Assembly (NCBI GenBank): GCA_016931895.1 | Contig: JAFGDY010000113.1 | Span: 1-50,132, forward strand | Source: Anaerolineae bacterium | GTDB taxonomy: Bacteria; Chloroflexota; Anaerolineae; 4572-78; J111 | Length of the DNA stretch: 50,132 nt | Reading direction: 5' to 3' | Shown: positions 24,909 to 37,285 of the stretch, one piece after another | Position numbering within the stretch: the first letter of the stretch is position 1 | Layout: each line of letters starts with the position of its first letter | Notes under the pieces: generated by a model | Told to the model about the DNA's origin: nothing | Seen by the model: only the letters and a program-made list of their open reading frames with translations | The model's database searches: none | Program-made: the position numbers and the translations under genes

Positions 24909-27900
24909 GTGAGTAGTAATGAATTATCAGCCCGGGTTGATCAATTGAGTCATTTGCCAGGCGATACCAAAAAAACTTTATCAAATTTGGGCGACTCGCC
25001 TGAACAGAATACGTCTGCGCCCCCTTCCCCAAAGGCAGATTTAAACCAGGCATTAATCATTGTCAACCAAATTGGCCAAGCCCTGACCACCTCTCTTCAC
25101 CTGTTAGATACTTCCTCTATTTGCCACGCCGTGCTTGACAGTCCGCAGTTAAAGGAACTATTTCCGTTTGACGCGGCGGAAATATGCCTGTGGGACGATC
25201 AAACGGATACGTTGACCGCCAAATTGCGCGTGCCGGAAGACCAGCCCGACCTTCAAGCTTACGACCGCACCTATCAGCCGCACGAAGGTTACACCGGCTG
25301 GCTGGCCACCCACCAAGCTCCCCTGCTGATTAACGATACCCGGCAGAACTCTAAAGTTACGCCCAAGATGGGCCTGGATAATTTCCCCTATCGTTCCTTA
25401 ATGGGCATGCCGCTGAAGGCGGGCCTGAAGTTTTTGGGAACCTTGGAATTGGCCGCTGCGCCGGTTGGGGCTTACAGCCAACAACACTTGATTCTGCTGG
25501 AGGTTGTGGCCAATCAAATGGCCATTGCCCTGGACCATGCTCGCCTGTTTTATGCCACCCAGCATAAAGTCTCCGAGTTATCCCTGCTGTTTGATGCCAG
25601 CCGCGAGTTGTCGGCCACCCTGTCTTATGATGAACTGCTGCACAGTTTAACCCGGCAAATGATTAAAGCCTTTCCCGCCGACGACTGCGCCATTTTTGAG
25701 TTTGACGAAGCAACCAGCGCCTTGAATTTAGTGCATCAATATCGCGATACTGCCCCCGCTACAGCCGCTGTGTTCCCCGGCCTTAGTAAAGAAACCTTTG
25801 CCCGCGCCCTGGCCACCATCCCGCTTTGGGAAAATTTGTTAAAAAAACAGGTGCCCCTCATCATTCGCACCGATGACCCCCTGGCTAATTTGGCCGAGGT
25901 AGATTTGCTTAAAGAATGTCAATGTGGCACGATGGTGGGCATCCCCTTAACCAGCCGCGATAAAATGACCGGCTTGTTGGCCCTCTTTTCGGTTGATGCC
26001 CAGGCTTTCACCGACGATCAAATTCTCCTGGCGCAATCGCTGGCCGGCCAGGCCAACATAATGATGGAAAATGCCCGTCTCTTTAGCCTGACCGACCAGC
26101 GGTTACAACGGCGCATTGACGAACTGGCCGGCTTGCAGCGGGTTAGCCGCGAGTTAAACAGCACCCTTGATCTGGACATAATTTTAGATCTGGTTTTGGC
26201 CGAGGCCTTGCGGGTGACCCGGGCCGATTTGGGGCAAGTCAATCTATACGACCCCCGGACCGGTAAACTGACGGCGCACAAAGAACAAGGTGGAACTGGC
26301 GGCTCTATCCCGCCGGCAAACGAAGCATCACCCGTTGGCCAAAAAATTATGGAACGCGCCCTGGATACGGGGCAGTCAATTTTAATTTCTGATGTACGGG
26401 AGAATGAGGATACCCAGGGTTTTGGCGCCCATACCCATTCCCGGGTGGTGGTGCCCATTTACTATGGCAGCGAGCCGGCCGGCGTGATCAACCTGGAAAG
26501 CAACCGGCGGCATGGCTTTACCCAAAACCAACTCCGTTACCTGGAGGCGCTATCTAACCAGGCGGCGGTGGCCATTGGCAATGCCCAGGCGTATGAGGAA
26601 CAGCGGCTTGAACGCGAGCAGGCCGGCCGGCGCATTGACCAACTCTCCCGCCTGGCCGAAATTAGCCATATCTTCCGCACCAACCGGCCCCTGTACGAAG
26701 TGCTGGAAGACATTGCCTATGCCATTATTGAGTCCGTAGGCTACCGGGTGGTGCTCATTAGCTTGGTGGCGGACGAGCCGCCCGCGCTTTCTCTTGAGGT
26801 GGGAGCCGGTATTCCGATTGCCGAATTTCGGGCGTTTCGCCAGGCAATAGGCCCACAGCCTTTGGCCCATTTGCCAAAAATTATGCTGGCCGACTTTTGC
26901 TTGAGCCGGTCTTACTTTATCCCCGTTGAGCGCAAAGAAGTGTGGCAGGGCAAATTGGATATTTCCTACCTGGCCCGGCAAGCCTCCCCTGAAAATATGG
27001 TTAAACCGGACAATGGCCTGGCCTGGCAGGCCGGCGATGTTTTATTTGTGCCTTTGACCGATGTGGAAAACAACATCATTGGTTTGCTTACCGTTGAGGA
27101 CCCCGACTCCGGGTTGCGGCCCGGTATTTCGTCGGTGGAAACGCTGGAAATTTTTGCCAATCATGCGGCCACGGCTATTGAGAATGCCCGCCTGTTTGAG
27201 CGCGAGCAGCAGCGCCGCCGGTTGGCCGATACGCTGCGCGGCGTGGCCGAAGCAATTAGTTCCAAGCTTGAGTTTGATGAATTATTGAATATTGTATTGC
27301 GCGAACTGGCCAATGTTTTGGCCTACGATATCGCCTCAGTGTATCGGCTGGAAGAGGACCAATTGGTGGCGGTTGGCGGGCGAGCCTGGGAGCACAGCCG
27401 GCAGATGTTGGAGATTTCTTTTTCAATGATGGACGTCAACCCCCATCGGCTGGTTATTGAAACGCAAGAGCCGGTGTTGGTTAAGGATGCTCGCCGGCAA
27501 TATCCCCAGGTTTTTGCCAAACCGCCTTATAATCGGGTAAAAAGTTGGTTGGGCGTTCCCCTCACTTATGGAGCCAATATCTTGGGGTTGATGTCGCTGG
27601 GCAGCGCCAAGGCAGACGTTTTTAGCCAGGAAGATGCGGGGGTAGTGTTGGCCTTTGCCAACCAGGTGGCGGTGGCTATGCAAAACGCGCGCCTGTTTGA
27701 CGAGGCCCGCCAGCAGGTGCGCCAACTGGCGGCGCTGACGGAAGTGGCCCAATCACTGAACCGGGCCTTGGACCTGAACGAAGTATTGAACCTGGTGCTT
27801 GACGCCGTTTTTGACCTGGCAGGCTGCGAGCAGGGCACCATTTGGTTGGTGGATAATTATACCAATACGGTTAAAATTGCCAATACCAAAAACATCTCAG

Positions 27901-30900
27901 ATTTTATGGTTGAGCTGGTCAACGAAAGCGCCATCTCGGTCAATTCCGAACCCTTTGCCCCAGTCATCCAGTCCGGCGACGTGCGGGTGGTTGAACGCAG
28001 CGTAACCAAAAAAGACGATATTGCTCATTATGGCCTGCCTTTCCCGGATGATGTTACCTACGTGCCCTTAAAAACGGAGCAAGGCGTGATTGGTATTTTG
28101 GCCCTGGAAACCGTTATTCACCATAAAAACATGCTCCAGTTGGTCACTACCCTGGCCGACCTGGCCGCCATTGCCATTGACAATACCCGCCTGCTGGAAA
28201 ACACCCGCCAGCGGGCCAATGAGATGCAACGCCTTTACAATTTGGGGGTTGAAGTAAGCGGCATGCTGGAAGTGCAGCAAGTGATGCATTCCGTGATAGA
28301 AACTACTATCACCCTCACCGATACCCAGCTTGGCGTAATTTTGTATTGGGAAGAAGAAACGCAGCAATACCTGGTTGATAGCGCCACCACGGCTGAAAAA
28401 TTGCGTTCCAAACTCACCTTTGACCGTCTGGAAGCCGCCGCCAACAACAGTGGCACGTCCTTGTGGTATGAGGTCACCCAACAGGTGATGGCCGACGAAG
28501 CGCCGGTCAATGTGAATCTGTCGCCCCAGTTAAGCGAGCCATCTGCCTTGAACCATCTGGAGGCGCAACCGCCCCCGGACCTGCCGGCCGAACACGCTCG
28601 GGCGTTGGGGGTAAGGGCCATGTTGGGCGTGCCCATCAAGGTGCAAAACCAGGCCAATGGCGCTATTTTTGTGGGCAGCCTTGAAGCGCGAAACTTTAAT
28701 GATTACGACCTCCAATTGTTGTCGTTTGTGGCCAACCAGGCAGCCGTGGCCATTCGCAACGCTCAACTGGTGCAACGTTTGAATCGGTTTACCGAGGAGT
28801 TGGAGCAGCGGGTGGCCCAACGCACCGAAGAACTGGCCCAAACTCTGTTAGACTTAACCGAGGAGCGCGACCGGGTGGAAGCCCTGTACCAGATTACGCG
28901 CGAGATTTCGGCCAGCCTGGACCTGGACAGAATATTGACCCAGGCGCTCAGCCTGATCAACCGGGCCGTAGGCATTTCGCACGGTTCCATCCTGCTTACC
29001 AGTCAAGAGACAGGCGGCCTGGTTTACCGGGCTGCCCTGGGCCGGGACACGCCCTTACCCAAAGGCGCTGAAGCCCAAACCGAGCTGGATTATATCTTGG
29101 CCCAGCAAGTGGTTGGAATGCACCAGCCCCAAATTATTGCCGATTTATCCGCAGAGTTGGAAGCTGAAATCCAACCGAAACCCCTTGAACACGGTTCGGC
29201 TATGGCCGTGCCGTTGATTACGGGCGAAGAGGTGGTGGGGGCGTTGTTGCTCTTCCACCCCGACGTTGATTACTTTACCGAGGACCATCTTAAATTGGTT
29301 ATGGCGGCCACTTCGCAAGTGGCCACCGCCATAAATAATGCAGAGTTGTATCGGCTGATCACGGACCAGGCCGACCGTTTGGGCGTGATGCTCCGGCTGC
29401 AAGCGTCGGAAGCGGCTAAAAACGAGGCTATTTTGCGGGGTATTACCGACGGCGTGCTGGTGCTGGATGCCAGCCGCAACATTGTGCTACTCAATCCCAA
29501 AGCGGCTGAAATCTTGGAGATTGACCCTACCGTCGCCGAAAATCAACCACTCGGCCAGATTTTAGGGCAGTCCGCCTCGGCGGCAGCCCTGGAATTGACG
29601 CAGCGTTTTTATGACAACCTGCTCAAAGCGCTGGACGAACTACAAGCCGGCCGGCCCTCGGCCGAGTTTCGCCTGGATGTTGAGCAAAAAGCAGTGGTTG
29701 TCACCCTGGCCCCGGTAGCCCTGGGCGGCGAAGAACGGCCCAGTATTGTTACCGTATTGCGCGACATCAGCAAAGAAGCAGAAATTGAGCGCATGAAAAA
29801 CGAATTTATCTCTACCGTTTCCCATGAATTGCGCACTCCGCTCACTTCAATTAAGGGCTATGCTGATTTGCTGGTTTCCTCTAACGCTGCCGCCCGGCTG
29901 GGCGAACTCAATCCGATGCAGCGCCGTTTTGTAGAGGTTATTCAATCCAATACCAATCGCCTGGCTCACCTGGTGAATGATATTCTGGAAATTTCTCGCA
30001 TTGAAACCGGCCGGGTTAAGCTGGACCTGGAGGCCCTGGACCTGGTCAGTCTTATCCAGGAGGTCGCTATTTCCTTTGAAGGACAACTCGTGCAAAAACC
30101 GATGAACTTTTCTTTGGATGTGCCCGATTCCTTGCCCCCGGTGTATGCCGATAAAGCCAGGGTGGTGCAGATATTGGTCAACCTGATTGGTAACGCCTGG
30201 CGTTATACTCCCGCAGGCAAAGACATTATTGTGCGCGCCCAGGTTAAAGACGACCGGTTTGTGCAGATAGATGTGGAAGACACCGGCATTGGCATTGTGG
30301 AAAAAGACCTGGCGTACATTTTTGAGCGGTTTTATCGTTCTGAGCGGGGAGAAGTGGAGATGGTGGATGGCACCGGCCTGGGCCTGTCCATTACCAAAAG
30401 TTTTGTGGAGATGTTGGGCGGCAAAATTTGGGTGGAAAGCCAGGTGGATGTTGGTTCTACCTTCAGCTTTACCTTGCCCCTGGAAGCGGCCAGGGATATT
30501 TTGGCCGCAGAGGCCGCCCAACCTGACCAGGCGCAGGTATTGCTAATTGAAGACGACCCGGCGGTGGTACAGATGTTGAAGCCCCGTTTGGAAGAAAAAG
30601 GTTACTGGGTAGTGGTCAAAAGCAAAGGACCGGCTGCTTTAGAATTTGCCCGTAACTCAAGCCAAACCTTGAGGGTGATAATGTTAGATATTCTTTTGCC
30701 GGAAACCAATGGGTTTGAGTTACTAACGCAGTTCAAAAAAAACAAAGCCACCGCCGATATTCCTATTTTTTTAACGGCCTTGTTTGTAAATCAAGAGGAT
30801 CAGGCTTTGGGTTTGGAGATTATTGATTACATTTCAACCTCTTATGCCGAAACCCAAATATCGGAAATTGTGGGGCTGGCCCTCAACCACTCCAAAACCT

Positions 30901-31295
30901 TACAGGCCGACAACGGCCAGGAAGTTTTACCCCAGGACCACGTGTTGATTGTGAACGATAACACCGAAACGGCCAGTTGGCTCAAAGAAACACTCCATAA
31001 TTGCGGCTGTTTTGTGCAGCGAGCCTTTAACAGCCAGCAGGCCATAGATATAGCCGCCAGTAAACCCGATTTGATTTTGGCCGATGCCAACATGCCCGGC
31101 ATTGAGGGCGGAACACTTATTGCCCAACTTCGCCGTACGCCCGAAACAAAAGAGATACCCATTATTGCCATTACCGAGAGCGCGGCGCCGGACGATACGC
31201 TGAAAATATGGCCCATCGGGGGCCGGTTTTTTACGGCAGATACTTTGGTTGCAGAAATTATGCAAATTGAGCATAATTCTAAGCGTGATAAGTAG
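24909..31295 (+). CDS. giant hybrid histidine kinase: ~8 GAF, PAS, HisKA, HATPase, two REC
   Basis: Encodes 2128 residues from GTG 24909 (GAGGGGG upstream). About eight GAF-type modules follow each other (roughly 40-215, 225-395, 410-560, 580-760, 775-935, 945-1100, 1110-1290, 1320-1480), most ending in an A-(I/V)-A-(I/L/M)-x-N/D-A-x-L helix. A coiled coil (EELEQRVAQRTEELAQ) precedes the last GAF. PAS is at ~1500-1615. The HisKA H-box is SHELRTPL with His1639. HATPase is at ~1740-1860 (NLIGNAWRYTP, DTGIGI, GTGLGLSI). REC1 (~1875-1990) has Asp1927 but Thr1977 in place of the conserved Lys. REC2 (from ~2011) has VNDN instead of the acidic pair and no KP motif. There is no transmembrane segment, so it senses cytoplasmic ligands. 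It sits between two receiver genes. Confidence 0.92.
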   Translation: MSSNELSARVDQLSHLPGDTKKTLSNLGDSPEQNTSAPPSPKADLNQALIIVNQIGQALTTSLHLLDTSSICHAVLDSPQLKELFPFDAAEICLWDDQTDTLTAKLRVPEDQPDLQAYDRTYQPHEGYTGWLATHQAPLLINDTRQNSKVTPKMGLDNFPYRSLMGMPLKAGLKFLGTLELAAAPVGAYSQQHLILLEVVANQMAIALDHARLFYATQHKVSELSLLFDASRELSATLSYDELLHSLTRQMIKAFPADDCAIFEFDEATSALNLVHQYRDTAPATAAVFPGLSKETFARALATIPLWENLLKKQVPLIIRTDDPLANLAEVDLLKECQCGTMVGIPLTSRDKMTGLLALFSVDAQAFTDDQILLAQSLAGQANIMMENARLFSLTDQRLQRRIDELAGLQRVSRELNSTLDLDIILDLVLAEALRVTRADLGQVNLYDPRTGKLTAHKEQGGTGGSIPPANEASPVGQKIMERALDTGQSILISDVRENEDTQGFGAHTHSRVVVPIYYGSEPAGVINLESNRRHGFTQNQLRYLEALSNQAAVAIGNAQAYEEQRLEREQAGRRIDQLSRLAEISHIFRTNRPLYEVLEDIAYAIIESVGYRVVLISLVADEPPALSLEVGAGIPIAEFRAFRQAIGPQPLAHLPKIMLADFCLSRSYFIPVERKEVWQGKLDISYLARQASPENMVKPDNGLAWQAGDVLFVPLTDVENNIIGLLTVEDPDSGLRPGISSVETLEIFANHAATAIENARLFEREQQRRRLADTLRGVAEAISSKLEFDELLNIVLRELANVLAYDIASVYRLEEDQLVAVGGRAWEHSRQMLEISFSMMDVNPHRLVIETQEPVLVKDARRQYPQVFAKPPYNRVKSWLGVPLTYGANILGLMSLGSAKADVFSQEDAGVVLAFANQVAVAMQNARLFDEARQQVRQLAALTEVAQSLNRALDLNEVLNLVLDAVFDLAGCEQGTIWLVDNYTNTVKIANTKNISDFMVELVNESAISVNSEPFAPVIQSGDVRVVERSVTKKDDIAHYGLPFPDDVTYVPLKTEQGVIGILALETVIHHKNMLQLVTTLADLAAIAIDNTRLLENTRQRANEMQRLYNLGVEVSGMLEVQQVMHSVIETTITLTDTQLGVILYWEEETQQYLVDSATTAEKLRSKLTFDRLEAAANNSGTSLWYEVTQQVMADEAPVNVNLSPQLSEPSALNHLEAQPPPDLPAEHARALGVRAMLGVPIKVQNQANGAIFVGSLEARNFNDYDLQLLSFVANQAAVAIRNAQLVQRLNRFTEELEQRVAQRTEELAQTLLDLTEERDRVEALYQITREISASLDLDRILTQALSLINRAVGISHGSILLTSQETGGLVYRAALGRDTPLPKGAEAQTELDYILAQQVVGMHQPQIIADLSAELEAEIQPKPLEHGSAMAVPLITGEEVVGALLLFHPDVDYFTEDHLKLVMAATSQVATAINNAELYRLITDQADRLGVMLRLQASEAAKNEAILRGITDGVLVLDASRNIVLLNPKAAEILEIDPTVAENQPLGQILGQSASAAALELTQRFYDNLLKALDELQAGRPSAEFRLDVEQKAVVVTLAPVALGGEERPSIVTVLRDISKEAEIERMKNEFISTVSHELRTPLTSIKGYADLLVSSNAAARLGELNPMQRRFVEVIQSNTNRLAHLVNDILEISRIETGRVKLDLEALDLVSLIQEVAISFEGQLVQKPMNFSLDVPDSLPPVYADKARVVQILVNLIGNAWRYTPAGKDIIVRAQVKDDRFVQIDVEDTGIGIVEKDLAYIFERFYRSERGEVEMVDGTGLGLSITKSFVEMLGGKIWVESQVDVGSTFSFTLPLEAARDILAAEAAQPDQAQVLLIEDDPAVVQMLKPRLEEKGYWVVVKSKGPAALEFARNSSQTLRVIMLDILLPETNGFELLTQFKKNKATADIPIFLTALFVNQEDQALGLEIIDYISTSYAETQISEIVGLALNHSKTLQADNGQEVLPQDHVLIVNDNTETASWLKETLHNCGCFVQRAFNSQQAIDIAASKPDLILADANMPGIEGGTLIAQLRRTPETKEIPIIAITESAAPDDTLKIWPIGGRFFTADTLVAEIMQIEHNSKRDK

Positions 31296-35462: not shown

Positions 35463-35491
35463 AAAAAAACGGCTCACGCCATAGTGAGCCG
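35463..35491 (-). terminator. intrinsic terminator of the tRNA-Asn gene
   Basis: An 8-bp stem (CGGCTCAC with its complement), 6-nt loop. On the minus strand it is followed by seven T (35463-35469). It starts about 10 nt after the mature tRNA 3' end. A T-run on the other side makes it bidirectional. Confidence 0.92.
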
Positions 35492-35501
35492 CTTTTTTTT
35501 G

Positions 35502-35832
35502 CTCCTCGGGTAGGACTCGAACCTACAACCAACCGGTTACATCTACCCCTGCGTTTCCACAAGGAATGGACTATCTCACCACCCCAGAGGGGTGCGGGGC
35601 GCTCAAGAGTGGTTTATTGGTTGGGGTCCTCACCACTTAAGTCTCTGCACCTTCCTGGCTACTTCTCACGAGTAATTCTCGTTTTTCTTCCCATTCACCA
35701 GGCTTGGCTCAAGGTTACCACCACCCGCAGTGCTGCGGTTTCCCTGAATTCACCCCGTTTTTCCACTAGCCATTGCTGACTAGGGCTGCAACAATATACA
35801 GCCGGCCGCTCTACCGATTGAGCTACCGAGGA
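35502..35832 (-). tRNA. trnN: tRNA-Asn (GUU) interrupted by a group I intron
   Basis: The exons are 35832-35798 (35 nt) and 35539-35502 (38 nt). Joined they give a complete cloverleaf: acceptor TCCTCGG/CCGAGGA, D arm GCTC/GAGC, anticodon stem GCCGG/CCGGT with loop CTGTTAA (anticodon GTT), T arm GTAGG-TTCGAGT-CCTAC, discriminator G. CCA is not encoded. Mature length without CCA is 73 nt. The intron splits the anticodon between U35 and U36. Neither half alone is functional, so splicing is required. It is transcribed from a good promoter overlapping the end of rpoD and closed by a strong terminator. Confidence 0.93.
35540..35797 (-). other. group I (IC3-like) self-splicing intron in tRNA-Asn
   Basis: 258 nt with no open reading frame. 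The 5' exon ends in U and the intron ends in G, as group I splicing requires. The internal guide GCAGCC (35789-35784) pairs with exon GGCTGT (35803-35798) in six pairs ending in the diagnostic U-G. Core segments read on the minus strand are AATTCAGGGAAACC (35750-35737), AACCTTGAGCCAAGCC (35716-35701), GAAGGTGCAGAGAC (35654-35641) and GAGATAGTCC (35577-35568). They appear in the same order and nearly the same sequence as in the cyanobacterial tRNA-Leu(UAA) intron. Confidence 0.93.
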
Positions 35833-35873: not shown

Positions 35874-35901
35874 ATTATATGCAAGAGTGGCGGTTCGTCA
35901 A
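35874..35901 (-). promoter_or_regulatory. promoter of tRNA-Asn
   Basis: -35 TTGACG (35896-35901), 16-nt spacer, perfect -10 TATAAT (35874-35879). It lies immediately downstream of the rpoD stop codon. Confidence 0.75.
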
Positions 35902-35908
35902 ATTGGGT

Positions 35909-37285
35909 TTAGCCCAAGTAATCCCGCAGTTTGCGGCTGCGGATGGGATGGCGCAATTTGCGCAGGGCTTTGGCCTCTATTTGCCGGATTCTTTCCCGGG
36001 TTACGCCAAAGGCCAGGCCAACCTCTTCCAGGGTGCGGCCCTGGCCGTCGGACAGGCCAAAGCGCATCTCCAATACCTTACGCTCGCGGTCGCTCAGGGA
36101 GTCCAAAATCTCGTGCAATTGTTCTTTGAGCAGTTGTTTGGAGGCCGCGTCTACCGGGCCAACCACGCTTTCATCTTCAATAAAGTCGCCCAGGTAACTG
36201 TTTTCCTCTGAGCCTATGGGCGTGTCCAACGACATCGGCTCCTGGGCAATGCGCATAATGCGGCGCACTTTGCCGGCTGCGCGGCGCCAACTGCGTTCTA
36301 CCATCGAATCGAGCGTTTGGCTGTTACCTTGCGCCTCAACAATGGCTTGCAGTTCTTCATCGGTGAGTAAGTCCATTTCCAGGGCAATTTCTTTGGCCGT
36401 TGGCTCCCGGCCATACTCTTGCAGCAGGCGGCGCTGAACACGCAGCAGGCGGTTGATGGTTTCCACCATGTGCACCGGAATGCGAATGGTGCGGGCCTGG
36501 TCGGCAATGGCCCGGCTAATGGCCTGGCGAATCCACCAGGTGGCATAGGTGGAGAATTTGTAGCCACGTTTATAATCAAACTTTTCCACAGCCCGGAGCA
36601 GGCCAATGTTGCCTTCCTGGATCAAGTCTAAAAAGTTCATGCCCCGGCCAATGTAACGTTTGGCTACGCTGACCACCAGCCGCAGGTTGGCTTCGGCCAG
36701 GTAGCGTTTGGCCAGCAGGCCGTCAATGGCCTGGGTTTTATGCCTGATATACTCCGGTTCGGTCAGTTCTTCTTTCTTTTCCAATCTCTTTTGGGCCTTG
36801 AGGCCACGCTGGATGCGTTTGGCCAGGGATACTTCATCGGCGGCGGTCAGCAAATTAACCTGGCCGATTTCGCGCAGATACATGCGCACCGGATCATTGG
36901 TTAATTCCACGCTCAATTCACTATCCAAGCCAATGATGTTATTGGTGGCGCCGCTTTCTTCTAATTCTTCTTCAACTTCTTGCAACGCCGCATCGTCAGG
37001 TTCATCCACGTCGGCCAGGGCCTGGGTATCGCTTTCGTCATCCTCAATCACTTCAATGCCGTGTTCAACCAGTTGCGCAATAAGCGCATCGGTGGCTTCC
37101 ACGTCCAGCCCGCCATCAGGCAACACATTTAAAATCTCTTTTTGGGTGAGAACCTTTTGTTTTTTGCCTTTATTTACCAAAACTTCCAGGGGATCACCGA
37201 CTTCCGCTTCCGGCGTCTGGGCGGGTTTGGTTTTCTTTTTGGCTGTTTTGAGAATTTTTTGGTTAGCAACTTGCTTTTTGGCCAT
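35909..37285 (-). CDS. rpoD: primary RNA polymerase sigma factor (sigma-70/SigA)
   Basis: Encodes 458 residues. There is a Lys-rich start, region 1.1-like and acidic stretch (~50-120), region 1.2 ([17 protein letters not shown]), region 2 ([47 protein letters not shown]), region 3 and region 4 ([35 protein letters not shown]). All core- and promoter-contact motifs are present. Region 3 carries extra sequence of roughly 25 residues ([21 protein letters not shown]) between the [13 protein letters not shown] helix and [16 protein letters not shown], which primary sigmas of most phyla lack. It lies 55 nt downstream of dnaG, the classic macromolecular-synthesis pair without rpsU. Confidence 0.96.

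Follow-up and report, generated by a model that had tools for sequence, protein, structure and literature searches.

The window, by which we mean the whole 50,132-nt stretch of Anaerolineae DNA analysed here, carries on its minus strand a tRNA-Asn(GUU) gene (35502-35832) that is interrupted for 258 nt at 35540-35797. The 5' exon (35798-35832) holds tRNA positions 1-35 and ends in anticodon bases G34 and U35, and the 3' exon (35502-35539) runs from U36 to G73, with CCA not encoded; read along the minus strand, TCCTCGGTAGCTCAATCGGTAGAGCGGCCGGCTGT is followed by the 258 bases and then by TAACCGGTTGGTTGTAGGTTCGAGTCCTACCCGAGGAG. Just 5' of the gene lies a promoter-like site, TTGACG-16-TATAAT (35874-35901, minus strand), a consensus match only (11 of 12 bases), and just 3' of it a terminator-like stem of 8 pairs with a T run (35470-35491, minus strand). 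This stem was called on the plus strand with a T tail, and its minus-strand complement also leads into TTTTTTT. The locus adjoins a gene at 35909-37285 that Pfam identifies as a sigma-70 factor. Elsewhere in the window, a 2128-aa reading frame on the plus strand (24909-31295) resembles by eye a sensor kinase in which many GAF-like domains are repeated and the ends are of response-regulator type.

The initial annotation, made from the sequence alone, had described two halves 258 nt apart that join into tRNA-Asn(GUU), and had supposed that gene finders would miss them. The coordinates prove exact, and with default settings ARAGORN indeed finds no tRNA anywhere in the window; when run so as to allow introns it gives tRNA-Asn(gtt) at 35502-35832 with a 258-base intron, and the joined exons fold into a normal tRNA-Asn(gtt) cloverleaf. 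The locus is a tRNA-Asn gene, with a GUU anticodon once the intron is removed.

Intron boundaries and group I structure

Nine members of the window's family, one of the same genus (G006) and eight others, carry an uninterrupted tRNA-Asn beside the orthologous sigma-70 gene (rpoD), and in these relatives the two flanking parts of the region query, 5-43 and 302-348, abut directly, with the 258-nt gap missing. The joined window exons match the intronless G006 gene base for base (75 of 75), and that tRNA-Asn scores 72.2 bits with RF00005. When shifted joins were examined none yielded the same product, leaving one possible join. Given the empty sites, the identity and the unique join, the intron is 35540-35797, between U35 and U36, and it splits the anticodon between positions 35 and 36, as had been proposed; disrupted exons in relatives were also looked for, and the exons there are intact.

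That the insertion is a group I intron was likewise borne out. RF00028 matches 35547-35807 on the minus strand at 74.2 bits (E 4.4e-17; cut-off 50), its single match in the whole window genome, and the window intron scores 238.9 bits against R1, the family's covariance model, built on 15 members of which one is the window sequence itself. The features that follow are all on the minus strand. Exactly as previously described, the internal guide GCAGCC (35784-35789) forms P1 with exon GGCUGU (35798-35803; GGCTGT in the DNA), with U-G at the splice site; P1 is 98.9% paired across the family, and the U-G is present in 15 of 15 introns. The P2 hairpin (35766-35783) covaries and carries a GNRA loop, GCAA in the window and GNRA in all 15, and P3 (5' strand 35751-35758, 3' strand 35595-35601) is 96.2% paired, with two-sided changes at 4 pairs. 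P4, P5 and the 5' side of P6 occupy 35698-35748. In the guanosine-binding helix P7, GCAGAGACU (35640-35648) pairs with AUAGUCC (35568-35574), and these pairs are invariant in 15 of 15 family introns. The P8 hairpin lies at 35580-35594 and the P9 hairpin at 35547-35564, the latter with two-sided changes at 5 pairs and a GAAA loop in 15 of 15. The intron's last base, at 35540, is the G noted earlier, and a terminal G ends all aligned introns.

In the 15-intron alignment P3, P8 and P9 covary; over its 53 pairs, 96.6% of cells are paired and 21 pairs have two-sided changes. The covariation score was reached by none of 500 shuffles and fell from 0.37 to 0.05-0.07 when the partners were slid. Folded alone, the window sequence gives much the same helices, including an extra hairpin that is considered below, at an energy that is ordinary for its composition (z -1.57). 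Judged from its sequence, the catalytic core P3-P8 with the guanosine site in P7 is intact, and this is apparently a known kind of intron in a new host gene and at a new site. An archaeal-type tRNA intron, cut by a protein endonuclease, would also be an insertion in the anticodon loop, but the site is not 37/38, the host genes are bacterial, and the full group I core together with the RF00028 match refutes this explanation, which we consider extremely improbable. In splicing by the group I route, free guanosine would attack after U35, and the freed U35 would then attack after the intron's terminal G. The GUU anticodon would form only at ligation, probably assisted by pairing of the exons in the anticodon stem.

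The extra hairpin and the intron subgroup

Between P7 and P3 lies an extra, P7.1-like hairpin of about 30 nt (35607-35638, minus strand), whose stems compensate from member to member (GUGG/CCAC, GGGG/CCCC, GCAG/CUGC, GAGG/CCUC) and whose internal motif, UGAGGA...CCAAUAA, is near-invariant. Among the loci compared it is confined to the main-clade tRNA-Asn introns; it is absent from L133 and L163. IC3 introns, the subgroup to which the initial annotation assigned the window copy, are small, have GNRA loops on P2 and P9, and are without P5abc, and the window family has all of these traits. IC3 introns are also not known to have an extra helix between P7 and P3, and in this trait the main clade departs from them. 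By architecture alone the intron is consistent with IC3, but because of the extra hairpin we do not file it there firmly.

Some group I introns need a host protein to splice, and it is conceivable that the conserved hairpin binds such a protein and that splicing is regulated, which would make the supply of tRNA-Asn conditional. Small tRNA introns like this one are, however, usually self-sufficient, and we think regulated splicing that depends on a host protein unlikely.

tRNA-Asn supply in the window genome

The window genome is a 320-contig draft, 97% complete with 4.7% contamination. The tRNA model marks 43 places in it, none of which is a tRNA-Asn, and a search of the genome with the joined tRNA returned only the two halves and weaker matches to other tRNAs. 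A one-mismatch tRNA-Asn pattern match at G000:C215 is absent from the tRNA-model list and was rejected. The check for a second tRNA-Asn that the initial annotation had recommended thus turned up none in the draft genome. More broadly, the intact tRNA-Asn anticodon arm AGAGCNNNNGGCTGTTAACC, sought with up to one mismatch, is absent from 18 of 18 intron-bearing genomes or records, two near-matches aside, which we rejected because they do not read as tRNA-Asn, and it is present in both intronless controls. The evidence that the split gene is the sole detectable tRNA-Asn of the draft genome is strong but not absolute, since in a draft assembly a missing second tRNA-Asn is no proof.

With no second tRNA-Asn found, the gene can serve only if the intron is spliced out in the cell, and with the anticodon of the sole detectable tRNA-Asn split, an essential gene is missed by ordinary tRNA finders. 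It might be argued that the intron is dead, the split gene being a pseudogene while another tRNA-Asn supplies the cell, as the assembly is a draft in which tRNAs such as tRNA-Ile(GAU) likewise go unseen. But no other tRNA-Asn was found here or in the 17 other intron-bearing genomes or records, and the exons and catalytic core are tightly constrained, with compensating changes, and we regard a dead intron as very unlikely. A functional intron may persist because its excision is complete enough to supply the sole tRNA-Asn.

Distribution, mobility and known tRNA introns

In a survey of 396 genomes of the window's class, RF00028 had matches in 79. A strict split-cloverleaf finder sorted the introns by host tRNA and site, a brute-force ARAGORN splice scan having been rejected as too permissive; L076 and L084 were missed by the strict finder because of their long P1 loops and were recovered by ARAGORN with introns allowed. 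At least nine tRNA-Asn introns, all RF00028-positive, came from scanning named genomes with a degenerate pattern, which otherwise matched mostly intact tRNA-Asn genes. Among the matches listed, these introns lie in Nitrospirota, including Nitrospira (L116, L132, L163, L176, L203, L204), and elsewhere in Omnitrophota (L133), Patescibacteria (L182) and a deltaproteobacterium (L159). With R1, main-clade tRNA-Asn introns were found in 8 of the 396 genomes of the class and, among 296 from Nitrospirota, in 19; across 692 genomes they score 160-260 bits and other tRNA introns at most 90, and each of the 19 Nitrospirota best matches was verified individually as tRNA-Asn 35/36. An assembly or binning artefact that joined a tRNA to foreign sequence might be suspected in a draft assembly, but recurrence refutes it: no fewer than 30 independent genomes have homologous introns at this position, and the join coincides exactly with the splice site. 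We consider its probability negligible.

The strict finder also recognised split tRNAs with the anticodons CAU, UCU (Arg), UAA (Leu), CUU and UUU (Lys), and GUA (Tyr). Class genomes carry group I introns in tRNA-Lys(CUU) at 35/36, tRNA-Lys(UUU) at 34/35 and tRNA-Tyr(GUA) at 35/36 (L216, L232, L234, L258), and we know of no reports of tRNA-Lys or tRNA-Tyr as bacterial group I intron hosts. Many genes for tRNA(CAU), of elongator-like as well as initiator-like kind, have their split between U33 and C34 (L077, L088, L095, L227, L244, L437, L445 and other loci), the copies at L218, L231 and L264 being split instead at 36/37.

A strict viral pattern led to one further tRNA-Asn split at 35/36, by a divergent 211-nt intron, at L416:3860-4147 (minus strand) in IMGVR_UViG_3300033233_000001; a looser pattern had returned 120 loci, none with a split tRNA. 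The L416 intron scores 91.4 bits with the tRNA-Asn intron model and 36.4 bits (E 2.3e-6) with RF00028, below the family cut-off. A single array in the record (297,749 bp) holds more than 20 tRNA genes, and the record is apparently viral, by its IMG/VR listing, its dense tRNA array and its few PHROG matches; terminase searches of it found none. The introns at tRNA-Asn 35/36 are a patchy family with members in several phyla of bacteria and in one apparent giant phage. According to a 2014 review, the phage introns known at that time were all in protein-coding genes (PMC3984707). In another record, a 595-kb uncultured phage (LR756511.1, L478), an apparent tRNA-Leu(UAA) is split at 34/35 by a 700-nt intervening sequence, and in Gordonia phage Daredevil a partial match of 40.7 bits to the tRNA-Asn intron model (L477:706-810) lies in an unannotated gap beside an integrase gene, with no split tRNA recognised at that place.

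In some members of the family the P1 loop contains a reading frame for an HNH endonuclease (L116, L203, L433, L434, and in part L435); the Pfam HNH matches of L116 (E 0.004) and L203 (E 0.0075) are both below the curated cut-off. L084, in a genome of the window's class, has a related, damaged-looking HNH frame in which HP and GANCH replace HH and CANCH, L076 has a short remnant resembling the start of the L084 frame, and the P4/P5 region of L239 contains a fragment, WLAGVLDGEGSL, that by eye resembles a LAGLIDADG remnant. The HNH genes make the family look mobile; no homing endonuclease gene was found in the window intron, and this copy may itself be immobile.

In the tree, whose deep branches are weak (about 200 columns), L076, L084 and L239, introns of three other families, form a group with the window intron (99%), and the other sampled members of the window's own family have no tRNA-Asn intron. 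Given this grouping and the intronless relatives, gain by homing would fit the window lineage better than vertical descent, the source perhaps being a relative with an HNH endonuclease in its P1 loop. The joint explanation that we favour, and that we hold to be highly probable, is that a split tRNA-Asn gene carries an intact group I intron, predicted to be excised in the cell and to have been acquired by homing. Monophyly of all tRNA-Asn introns is unsupported: the main clade leaves out L182, L133/L163 and the viral L416, so that introns may have settled at this site on more than one occasion. One may go further, and see in tRNA-Asn(GUU) a cross-phylum homing site at which introns with HNH genes in their P1 loops, carried by large tRNA-rich phages, would pass among Nitrospirota, the window's phylum and others, and at which the main clade would have gained a hairpin module (UGAGGA...CCAAUAA) that stabilises or regulates the ribozyme; this reading is possible but, on balance, doubtful.

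What these introns mean is several-fold. The short list of bacterial group I hosts gains an essential, usually single-copy tRNA and a site inside the anticodon, and a tRNA-Asn that is "missing" from an annotation can turn out to be an intron. The family is also a compact ribozyme that covaries naturally and whose extra hairpin is unexplained, and with it the movement of introns between phyla, and possibly phages, can be put to the test. Asn had seemed unfamiliar as a host when the locus was annotated, and our own search, which covered openly licensed literature only, found nothing relevant published on a bacterial tRNA-Asn group I intron; provisionally, then, the tRNA-Asn 35/36 site is previously unreported.

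The intron of Azoarcus tRNA-Ile(CAU) and those of proteobacterial tRNA-Arg/Ile have IC3 architecture. They resemble the window family in their group I core and in the GNRA loops on P2 and P9; the window family differs in its host, its site, its extra hairpin and, in some members, an HNH gene in the P1 loop. The Azoarcus intron is cited as a pre-tRNA-Ile intron (PMC3984707). Reported bacterial hosts include tRNA-Leu(UAA), fMet and Ile2 and, in large sulfur bacteria, Arg(UCU) and Leu(UAA) (PMC4033280, PMC8450103, PMC4853749), and the cyanobacterial fMet introns are thought to spread laterally (PMC4033280, PMC8450103). The tRNA-Leu(UAA) introns of cyanobacteria and plastids and the cyanobacterial fMet introns are, like ours, small, placed in the anticodon loop, preceded by a 5' exon U and ended by G, whereas the window family has a tRNA-Asn host, the 35/36 site and the hairpin between P7 and P3. 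In a further known bacterial case a tRNA split by a group I intron is missed by annotation, although the tRNAs there are other ones. The tRNAs of metagenome-assembled genomes are often invaded by group I introns, with the tRNAs left unnamed (PMC8172020); the general phenomenon is the same and is familiar to tRNA specialists, and that paper gives neither host tRNA nor site. That host and that site, tRNA-Asn at 35/36, match none of the Leu(UAA), fMet, Arg or Ile intron families.
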